This document shows positions 9,432 through 14,512 of a stretch of 36,546 bases of DNA, piece by piece (the stretch's first letter is position 1; every line of letters begins with the position of its first letter). The DNA is from a bacterium (lineage in GTDB: Bacteria; Patescibacteriota; Saccharimonadia; Saccharimonadales; SZUA-47): NCBI GenBank assembly GCA_030427125.1, contig JAUHXF010000009.1:1-36546 (forward strand), read 5' to 3'. A program made the position numbers and the translations under genes. The notes under the pieces are model-generated. The model worked only from the letters and a program-made list of their open reading frames with translations, did not search any database and was not told the DNA's origin.

Positions 9432-9506
9432 GGCCCCATCGTCTAACGGTTAGGACATCAGATTCTCAATCTGGCAATACGGGTTCGATTCCCGTTGGGG
9501 TCACCA
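9432..9506 (+). tRNA. tRNA-Glu (CUC anticodon), CCA encoded
   Basis: GGCCCCATCGTCTAACGGTTAGGACATCAGATTCTCAATCTGGCAATACGGGTTCGATTCCCGTTGGGGTCACCA folds as a cloverleaf; anticodon loop TTCTCAA. Confidence 0.95.
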
Positions 9507-9547
9507 ATCAATGAACCGGAGCTTTAGTTCCGGTTTTTTGATTGATG
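9507..9547 (+). terminator. Rho-independent terminator after tRNA-Glu
   Basis: AATCAAT-GAA-CCGGAGC-TTTA-GTTCCGG-TTTTTT-GATTGAT, nested stems with U-run. Confidence 0.75.
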
Positions 9548-9630
9548 GATTTCAGACAGAAATCTCGAACCCGGTCGCGGTTCGCTATTTGGCTTGCCAA
9601 ATATACCCTAGTATTCCCGTTGGGGTCACC

Positions 9631-9668
9631 AACTTGAACACACCAGCCTGTCTGGTGTTTTTAAGTTG
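9631..9668 (+). terminator. Terminator-like hairpin after the second tRNA 3'-end copy
   Basis: AACTT-gaacaCACCAG-cctgt-CTGGTG-TTTTT-AAGTT, same architecture as 9507-9547. Confidence 0.6.
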
Positions 9669-9976
9669 GTAGCTCCATCAGGAGCAGAACCCGAAAGGGT
9701 TCGCTAATCCCCCGGAGTGCTAGCGACCGACGGGCGGATTATACTTTGTATTCCCGTGCAGCTCGCTATTGCCCGGCAAGCTTGCTTGCGATGGCGCAAC
9801 ATACCTCAGTATTCCCGAGAGATTCGCCACACACCCCAGCGGAGCGGGCGTGTGGATTGAATATAACCTAGTATTCCCGTTTGGGGTCACCAGGCTTTTT
9901 AAAGGATAGTAATTTGCAACCATAAGAACCTCTTGGAACTCATTCTGTAAAAAGAAAATAGAAAAATTCTTATGAT

Positions 9977-10010: not shown

Positions 10011-10334
10011 ATGGAAAGATTTGATTTTGGTGGTTCGACAATTGATGGTTTCGTTATGGATTTCGTCTCTTCAGATGATGATAGTGTGGAATCTGTCGGT
10101 GATGACCCGCATTTTGTTGCGGGATTAGAACTGGGTGAGGAATTGCGCGACGCTTGCCCAACCACTAGGTGCCCGCAAACTACTGGTGTGGTCATGAGAG
10201 TCACGGGCGCCATTGCCGTAAGTATGCGTTGTGCTAATTTTGGATCATCTAGCTGTCTACTTACAGAAAAAGACCCTCTAGAAGTCGGTAAATCGATAGA
10301 CCAACGCTCTTCTGACCTTGGATATACCGAGTAG
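10011..10334 (+). CDS. Small hypothetical Cys-containing protein
   Basis: 107-aa ORF directly after a promoter-like sequence; an antisense ORF (9899-10366) overlaps it. Confidence 0.5.
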   Translation: MERFDFGGSTIDGFVMDFVSSDDDSVESVGDDPHFVAGLELGEELRDACPTTRCPQTTGVVMRVTGAIAVSMRCANFGSSSCLLTEKDPLEVGKSIDQRSSDLGYTE

Positions 10335-10444: not shown

Positions 10445-11122
10445 ATGCCTGTGTGTTGTAATGGATTAATGAAGAAAATTCCAAAACTAAAAAATCTTGA
10501 AGTTGCAGACTCATTTATCCAAGTGAATTTTATCAAGGGATTTTCCTACATTGATACGGCTGGAGAGATTTTAAATCTATACCAAAATGATGAGGGAAAA
10601 ATAACTTATGACATGAACGCACAAAGACTTGTGCTAGCGAATGACAATTTCCCTAACACGTCAATCAGAGAGCTAAAGATTTCTGTCGTAGATCTCTGGG
10701 CTAAGTTTACGAACAAGGATTTAAAAGCAAGTATCGATGATTACGTTACTGAAGCAAAAAAGATATTTAAAGTTACAATGGCTAAAGATGCCAAAAGAAT
10801 TGGAATCAGAAGAAATTACATTTTCGACCCCAAAGAGCAGGTAGCAGACCTCGGGAAACTAATCAAAATTGATTCAAGTGCATCCGTAGAATTAACTACC
10901 ATGAACTTCACCTATAATCACCCGGATGGACTGAAAGGAAATATCAAAACTGAAGTTCTTGTCGACAGTGAAGGCAAACGTGCAATATTATTTGATATCG
11001 ACATTTACAATAGAGGTGATTCAAAACTATCAGCTCTCAAGAAAAATCTAGAGACTATTGAGAAGGCTTTTGAAAGCAAAGATTTACTCTCTTTTGTTAA
11101 CGCTATAATTGAGGAATTGTAG
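10445..11122 (+). CDS. Hypothetical protein, weakly reminiscent of the TIGR04255 family (by eye)
   Basis: 225-aa AT-rich ORF; 'AKRIGIRRNYIFD' segment; stop codon directly abuts the next start. Confidence 0.7.
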   Translation: MPVCCNGLMKKIPKLKNLEVADSFIQVNFIKGFSYIDTAGEILNLYQNDEGKITYDMNAQRLVLANDNFPNTSIRELKISVVDLWAKFTNKDLKASIDDYVTEAKKIFKVTMAKDAKRIGIRRNYIFDPKEQVADLGKLIKIDSSASVELTTMNFTYNHPDGLKGNIKTEVLVDSEGKRAILFDIDIYNRGDSKLSALKKNLETIEKAFESKDLLSFVNAIIEEL

Positions 11123-11581
11123 ATGTCTTCTGAAAAAGAAAAAATTGTTGATCTGGTGAACAACAACCTAAAAGGAGCTTTAATCGGGGTATCGGCCTTT
11201 CTAGCAGTAGTTACACTGTTGTTCTTATACGCCTCTCGAGATCAAGAATTCCCACATGTAACTGTAGTAAGTTCTTACGCAATGCTTACTTTACTGATCG
11301 TATGTGTGATTATTCTAATTGCTTTTTCGATTTACGATAGTCGAGTCGATAGAATAATTGACTTAACAAACACTGAGCGCGATTCAACTGTAAAAAACTA
11401 TTCTAAACTGGTCGATACATTACAAAGTAACCTTGATGCAAGTAGTTCACGTGATGTCGCAAGGTTCAGAGCTGAATCGCAAAACTACACTGATAAAGCA
11501 CCTGAGGACATAAAGGGGTGGACGCCCGTTTCTAGTACAACGGAAAACGATACAACTAATAAAAATATAAGTGTAGACTAA
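11123..11581 (+). CDS. Small two-TM membrane protein with C-terminal coiled-coil-like tail
   Basis: Two hydrophobic segments (ALIGVSAFLAVVTLLFLYA; YAMLTLLIVCVIILIAFSIY); ATG immediately after the upstream TAG (coupled operon). Confidence 0.7.
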   Translation: MSSEKEKIVDLVNNNLKGALIGVSAFLAVVTLLFLYASRDQEFPHVTVVSSYAMLTLLIVCVIILIAFSIYDSRVDRIIDLTNTERDSTVKNYSKLVDTLQSNLDASSSRDVARFRAESQNYTDKAPEDIKGWTPVSSTTENDTTNKNISVD

Positions 11582-11663
11582 ATCAACTAGTGTAAAACTT
11601 ATCCACCTTGAATCTTGTAAGTCTTTCTACTTCATCCAGCAGAAGTGCTAACTTATCTTGAGC

Positions 11664-11821
11664 GGGGTTACCAATCAATGAACCGGAGCTTGCCTCCGGT
11701 TTTTGCATTGATGGATTCCAAACAGAAATCTCGAACCCGGTAGCGGTTCGCTATTCAGTCACACCCCAGCATAGCGGGCGTGTGGATTGGATATGCCCTA
11801 GTATTCCCGTTGGGGTCACCA
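11664..11821 (+). repeat. Right copy of the tRNA-Glu 3'-end/hairpin repeat
   Basis: 11664-11755 matches 9497-9589; 11760-11821 matches 9830-9892; ends in exact ATTCCCGTTGGGGTCACCA (11803-11821). Confidence 0.9.
11681..11705 (+). terminator. Terminator hairpin in the right repeat
   Basis: AACCGGAG-cttgc-CTCCGGTTTTT. Confidence 0.6.
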
Positions 11822-13735: not shown

Positions 13736-13861
13736 AGAACAGTAGTATGCATGCAAATATTTAGTCCGGCAAGCAATAGCTTTTTCAGCACGACCTCTCA
13801 ATGCTCATGCTTGCAATCTAAACTGCAGAAGAATATAAATAATCTGAACAAAAGGAGCAAA

Positions 13862-14512
13862 ATGGCAAATTTTCCTACTACATTTACAGACTCACCAGAA
13901 ATACTACGCGGTGGAATTGGCGTGCGAGGTGACAGGTCCTTGCAGAGACTCGAAGAAAGAGGGCTCTATGTAGCAGCAGGTCTTTCAGAATACTATGCCG
14001 GTGCAGTAGGAGTAATGGGATCACAGCCTCACATTCGAGAATATTGCCCAAAAGACGCAACAAACAAAAGATTCGGAACATTAACATCCATTGAAGAATG
14101 GCTGCAGAAAGGTGGCGGCAGAGGCATGTTCTTGCTTCTCGAAGGAGCCGTCAGGGGAGCAACACTCGCAGGATACTCCTGGACTGGGCCGGGACCATGT
14201 GATGAACTACCCGACCACCCAATCACATCAGCGTACAGAATTGGTGAGAGAGCACAAGGAAAAAGACTCAGTGGTGATTTCGTGCAAGTAGTTGTGTCGG
14301 CTACCAACGCTCTGTATGCTCCGAACGAAGGCATTGGACTTGAAACTTGGCAAAGCAACAAAGCAGCTAGTCTTTATCCGAAGATTGGATTTGAACTAGT
14401 CACACAAGCGCCTGAACCAGAAATGAGACCCAGCCTACGTGAAGACGCAGTAGATGGCAAAGTAGAAGATCTTAGGCTCTATATGGGCTACCCGGGCGAC
14501 TTACTAGCATAA
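13862..14512 (+). CDS. GNAT-like acetyltransferase (putative)
   Basis: 'GIGLETWQSNKAASLYPKIGFELV' resembles the GNAT C-terminal motif; AAAGGAG SD before ATG at 13862. Confidence 0.6.
   Translation: MANFPTTFTDSPEILRGGIGVRGDRSLQRLEERGLYVAAGLSEYYAGAVGVMGSQPHIREYCPKDATNKRFGTLTSIEEWLQKGGGRGMFLLLEGAVRGATLAGYSWTGPGPCDELPDHPITSAYRIGERAQGKRLSGDFVQVVVSATNALYAPNEGIGLETWQSNKAASLYPKIGFELVTQAPEPEMRPSLREDAVDGKVEDLRLYMGYPGDLLA

Follow-up and report, generated by a model that had tools for sequence, protein, structure and literature searches.

The window, that is, the whole stretch of 36,546 nucleotides analysed here, carries a tRNA-Glu(CTC) gene that is followed directly by four units ending in the core TATTCCCG (Table 1). 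The original prediction was correct in stating that the tail of this gene recurs downstream both exactly and with one extra T, and that the core starts at positions 9612, 9749, 9810 and 9872. Specifically, two of the four units carry the tail down to CCA and the other two stop at ATTCCCG, while the terminator of unit 1 is also present after tRNA-Glu(TTC) in the same genome. A fifth unit, related to unit 1 and overlooked in the original prediction, sits beyond a segment with three open reading frames (ORFs) and is preceded by a degenerate tail at 11665-11673. Two further features had escaped notice: the 5' half of the T-arm is present in inverted orientation in each full unit, and the two halves of the tRNA T-arm correspond to TTCG and ATTCCCG. 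A unit therefore reads as a T-arm that a hairpin has split open at the loop and that is preceded by the inverted copy of its 5' half. Moreover, at positions 9565-9584 of the window and at three other loci (L087, L097, and L046), loose strands of partial tRNA copies adjoin their own reverse complement, placed before or after them, and thereby close a new hairpin.

Table 1. Features at and downstream of the tRNA-Glu gene, in window positions.
Feature	Position	Strand	Description
tRNA-Glu(CTC)	9432..9506	+	intact, CCA encoded; single call by both ARAGORN and Rfam
tRNA-Glu tail	9488..9506	+	tRNA positions 58-76, ATTCCCGTTGGGGTCACCA; recurs downstream
Unit 1	9507..9631	+	terminator-like hairpin, inverted T-arm copy, short hairpin, ATACCCTAGT, full tail copy
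Inverted copy of T-arm 5' half	9565..9573	-	TCGAACCCG, in unit 1
Unit 1 palindrome	9588..9601	no strand	TTTGGC-TT-GCCAAA
Tail copy 1	9613..9631	+	exact
Unit 2	9632..9756	+	terminator-like hairpin, GAACCCGAAAGGGTTCG hairpin, type-1 module, truncated tail ATTCCCG
Type-1 module	9698..9745	+	inside unit 2; model R2, 56.5 bits
Unit 3	9757..9817	+	61 nt; type-1-like module (9760-9805) and ATTCCCG; R2 27.9 bits
Unit 4	9818..9892	+	type-1b hairpin (CACACCCC..GGGCGTGTG), AACCTAGT, tail copy with one extra T (9873-9892)
Gene-bearing segment	9893..11673	+	~1.8 kb; ORFs 10011-10334, 10445-11122, 11123-11581
Cassette-end motif	11645..11673	+	GTGCTAACTTATCTT-N5-GGGTTACCA, common to two gene cassettes of the congener
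Unit 5	11674..11821	+	second copy of unit-1 terminator, inverted T-arm, type-1b hairpin, exact tail copy (11803-11821)
ORF (M at 13862)	13751..14512	+	75% identity to a gene from a congener cassette at tRNA-Glu

The first two ORFs of the gene-bearing segment belong to no family and the third has a weak PycTM-like membrane match; defence and function libraries give nothing firm for the cargo ORFs of the window, and no integrase gene was found in the segment. The end GTGCKAAMTTATYTT-N5-GGGTYACCA is common to three gene segments across the genome of the window (G000) and a congener (G001). At the same tRNA-Glu, the congener carries a row of gene cassettes, each ending in GGGTCACCA, and two cassette proteins of 243 and 216 aa gave no family match. 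The locus therefore varies between relatives, and the invariant array that the original prediction had set against its own interpretation was not what was found. The cassettes at L019:6418-8468 of the congener share not only the end motif but also their start (ATGCTTGCA), which is promoter-like.

The tRNA-Glu array is one case of a wider phenomenon. Among the 60 tRNA loci of the window's genome and the congener, scanned for matches of at least 15/19, a downstream sense copy of the gene's own 3' tail is present at 16, two of which are neighbouring tRNA-Ser genes, leaving 14/60. The same scan yields 0/60 on the antisense strand, 0/60 upstream, and 1.1% for the tails of other tRNAs; the repeats are not due to chance. 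These copies follow tRNA-Phe, Met, Gln, Val, Pro, Arg, Thr, Glu(TTC), and Lys, and in many loci they match the adjacent tRNA at 19/19 positions. Many units extend the tail copy to CCA, and the better-defined break lies in the T-loop (GGT / CGAxTCC), so that a crossover located exactly at ATTCCCG, as had been proposed, is not borne out.

The hairpin modules form two covarying families, type 1, to which those of the window belong, and the larger type 2. Type 2 (model R1, three hairpins over 96 positions) was initially recognised in seven loci, where 16/31 pairs are compensated, and matches 71/150 genomes of the order with up to 27 copies per genome. Type 1 (model R2, which includes the module of unit 2) matches 11/150, R2 having been built from a single subtype. 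The conserved flanks and changing palindrome described in the original prediction are real: the alignment of 28 type-1 hairpins has 92.8% of its cells paired and a covariation of 0.453, against 0.111 when shuffled and at most 0.069 when slid, and that of 105 type-2 sequences reaches 97.3% and 0.533, against 0.155 and at most 0.084; fitting to the models inflates the paired percentages, and the slid and shuffled controls still stay far below. The array is real and functionally shaped. An exact 27-base type-2 pattern occurs in 33 stretches of a species-wide genome collection, all in records of Saccharibacteria, other Patescibacteria, or unnamed bacteria. Rfam recognises only the tRNA in the window and tRNAs or sub-threshold matches at the other loci, with nothing credible at a loose cut-off; two module patterns find no match in viral_contigs, plasmids return tRNA matches only, and searches of open-licence papers found such elements described nowhere in Saccharibacteria. 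The modules seem to represent a family of miniature mobile elements that has not been described before.

The type-2 modules are associated with tRNA genes in a fixed orientation. In a high-scoring set of 101, from which weaker modules could differ, a same-strand tRNA lies within 900 nt of 91 (10 have none that near). The tRNA ends at most 95 nt upstream in 50 of the 101 (median gap 77 nt), starts at most 95 nt downstream in 26 (median 40 nt), and lies farther off, within 900 nt, in 16 more. An opposite-strand tRNA is nearer in 0 of the 101, the best 30 type-2 loci have a same-strand tRNA in 30/30, and most type-1 loci share the same layout. The motif is thus not scattered independently of tRNAs, and the generic genome-wide repeat that had been considered is ruled out by the location of the matches. 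The modules break a partial tRNA copy, in most cases within the T-loop, and an intact tRNA remains alongside. In the upstream form, the module cuts a 5' partial tRNA at the T-loop, or sometimes at the D or anticodon arm, and is followed by the intact tRNA with its own promoter; in most cases of the downstream form, a terminator-like hairpin separates the tRNA from the module.

Syntenic empty and filled sites demonstrate insertion. A 104-bp insert at tRNA-Thr(TGT) is present in the congener and missing from the window's genome, with orthologous genes on both sides, while a 173-bp insert at tRNA-Val(GAC), again between orthologous flanks, is present in the window's genome and missing from the congener. 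Across genomes, mean module identity is ~0.66-0.67 at the same tRNA or at different ones, and the nearest relatives, reaching 94-95% identity, are found in other families; module sequence follows neither genome nor tRNA, which argues for mobility. At tRNA-Lys(CTT) of the window's genome (L034), the tail copy and the inverted T-arm copy match the tRNA-Lys of the congener rather than the adjacent gene, which suggests that the latter changed after the insertion, and the unit looks like a scar and not like a part that needs to match its tRNA. The original interpretation is partly supported by these data, and specifically in its view of repeated insertion at a tRNA hotspot and of an array of modules with structure-conserved stems.

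With a probability of roughly 0.55, the array represents miniature mobile elements that target tRNAs and have attC-like folded sites, stacked at a tRNA-Glu hotspot. Within a partial tRNA copy, a hairpin module would occupy the T-loop between GGT and CGAxTCC, and insertion would duplicate part of the tRNA, either the 3' tail with the terminator (the downstream form, as in the window) or the promoter with the 5' part (the upstream form). As this part would be present twice, one intact tRNA would always be left and the broken part displaced. Repeated rounds at one tRNA would give rise to an array of tails, and some of those at tRNA-Glu would have brought in small genes. The element may move as folded single-stranded DNA, because covariation is almost devoid of G.U and fixed one-sided bulges or wobbles would mark one strand, and recombination at the T-arm would be performed by a recombinase supplied in trans, with the host Xer as leading candidate. 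Several observations count against the mobile-element reading: the upstream-form duplicate includes the local promoter, so that it arose by local copying and was not brought along with the element; a simple att model leaves no room for the inverted T-arm copy; and 4/101 modules lie in a non-tRNA locus.

Alternatively, the units may be a functional RNA, conserved in structure and made with or beside tRNAs as a tRNA decoy or for trailer control, in which the tRNA pieces are part of the function. The strong structure conservation, the fixed sense orientation, and the inverted T-arm copies, which could pair with the tRNA, are in line with this explanation, but it is unlikely in view of the composition of the stems, in which G.U is far rarer than in tRNA stems. 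Non-Watson-Crick cells of the modules comprise 42 G.T versus 87 other, compared with 149 versus 12 in the tRNA stems at these loci (Fisher 3e-28), and, with one fixed wobble set aside, wobbles account for 1.4% of type-2 pairs versus 5.6-8% in those tRNA stems. As covariation is almost purely Watson-Crick, selection on folded DNA is favoured over selection on RNA; G.T exceeds A.C about 2:1 in the modules, so that RNA-level constraint is possible in part, and neutral decay after insertion could be the source of some of the mismatches. The terminator-like hairpin that precedes most downstream modules, the presence or absence of units between congeners, the tRNA-Lys unit that no longer matches its own tRNA, and the independence of module sequence from locus also speak against a functional RNA. 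The stems are asymmetric in a conserved manner, with a fixed one-sided bulge in type-1 hairpins and a fixed G.T in type 2, features that would let an enzyme discriminate between strands.

It is likewise improbable that the units are ordinary scars of tRNA-targeting genomic islands, namely attR remnants left by a tyrosine integrase, with the hairpins as the integrase arm region. Such islands share with the locus the direct repeat of the tRNA 3' end and the intact tRNA, would explain the tail repeats and gene cassettes at tRNA-Glu, and have a counterpart in the additive islands of Methylopumilus fGI-2, in which the last 20 bp of tRNA-Lys recurs before a variable gene region (PMC10872708). Hairpin modules are, however, not described there, and those islands are gene-rich and confined to one tRNA. 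Moreover, the integrase gene expected within an island is absent from the element, the same module occurs at many tRNA species, the upstream-form copies have a duplicated promoter, and structure is conserved far past an att core. In most genomes of the order, Xer is the one tyrosine recombinase, and few PF00589 genes other than Xer occur in the family; the only one in the window's genome is XerA/C/D-like (133 bits with the integron model versus a cut-off of 265) and lies on another contig. No dedicated integrase or transposase linked to the modules was found, which also counts against the mobile-element reading. A dedicated tyrosine integrase was not found either, the family genomes having mostly a single Xer and lacking an island integrase.

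A model without any mobile element, in which tRNA pieces undergo slipped or unequal duplication and the hairpins grow through palindrome correction, is hardly probable. The module at tRNA-Phe of the congener is bracketed by an exact 50-bp repeat of the promoter and tRNA positions 1-25, a duplication that must be local since it includes the promoter, and this tandem copy, the identical tandem modules in G086, and the free strands capped by their own complements are all compatible with slippage; local duplication cannot, however, generate modules up to 94-95% alike at unrelated tRNAs in different families. Mobilisation of REP-like elements by a Y1 (RAYT) transposase is very improbable and largely rejected: RAYT genes, present in 46/150 genomes of the order, including that of the window, are commoner with type-2 modules than without (35/71 versus 11/79; Fisher 3e-6, kinship uncorrected), but they are flanked by perfect palindromes of their own that are unlike the modules, a convincing R1 module was found at 0 of 12 Y1 loci scanned, and neither the congener (99% complete, 16 modules) nor the single-contig genome G046 (18 modules, one Xer) has a Y1 match. 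The single host Xer is, by exclusion, the leading though tentative candidate recombinase for the proposed mobile elements.

Tycheposons are cargo elements that measure 4-200 kb and come with their own linked tyrosine recombinase (PMC10872708). The window resembles them in having a full tRNA at one end together with partial tRNA copies; however, its units span ~60-190 bp and are mostly without genes, the gene segment is ~1.8 kb, and the only tyrosine recombinase of the genome is the unlinked Xer, so that the tycheposon-type arrangement suggested at first is not borne out and membership fails on size and linked recombinase. Integron attC sites measure 57-142 nt and rely on extrahelical bases to choose the strand (PMC2727003). 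Similarly, the modules are hairpin sites of ~60-110 nt between two short conserved half-boxes, with a variable top and one-sided unpaired bases, and they are stacked serially with small orphan genes. Conversely, their boxes are GGTTCG / ATTCC of the T-arm rather than RYYYAAC/GTTRRRY, no IntI is present, and they spread over many tRNAs with most units devoid of a gene, which rules out integron membership. In a bolder and rather doubtful version, any tRNA T-arm would serve as a docking site equivalent to attI, the T-arm/hairpin modules as folded single-stranded cassette sites equivalent to attC, and the capture of genes and modules would be run by the only Xer of the host. Such a use of host Xer on single-stranded folded DNA, as proposed for the modules, is described for CTX phage, which is integrated through its folded attP (PMC3089051); there, the target is dif and the whole phage genome is inserted. 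Most likely, the array works like an integron cassette array or an Xer-exploiting element, and on the tests made it is a member of neither.

Other repeats show partial resemblance. At E. coli tyrT, 178-bp repeats (rtT RNA) lie in tandem after the tRNA gene, each opening with the final 19 bp of that tRNA; they differ from the modules in their single locus, their repeat sequence, and the absence of an order-wide family. Rickettsia palindromic elements and REP/BIME repeats are short, palindromic, and mobile, occur in tens of copies, and can enter genes, but they are not tied to tRNA T-loops, and the REPs of the genomes studied here are a separate, RAYT-linked set. To our knowledge, few mobile elements are known in the reduced genomes of Saccharibacteria. 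If true, an order-wide family of structured elements nearly confined to tRNA genes would account for tRNA hotspots and the gene cassettes located there, would document naturally occurring insertions into essential genes, and might illustrate how a tRNA arm and a housekeeping Xer can give rise to folded recombination sites like those of integrons.

Lastly, some loci deserve separate mention. The RAYT-type Y1 transposase gene of the window's genome (contig C34, L217:736-1362, minus strand) is flanked by perfect palindromes. In G094 (L127:619-1433), a RAYT gene faces a tRNA-Gly that has a type-2 module in the D-arm of its upstream partial copy, and a long inverted repeat of the T-arm lies between the two genes. 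The four type-2 modules of the non-tRNA locus, a repeated one (L170:719-1082 and L177:651-746, in genomes G003 and G004), are embedded in a repeat of the form AGAGGGTGAG..module..GGGCACCGCTTGGGATGTC, which has no Rfam match and is possibly an undescribed structured RNA gene also struck by the elements.
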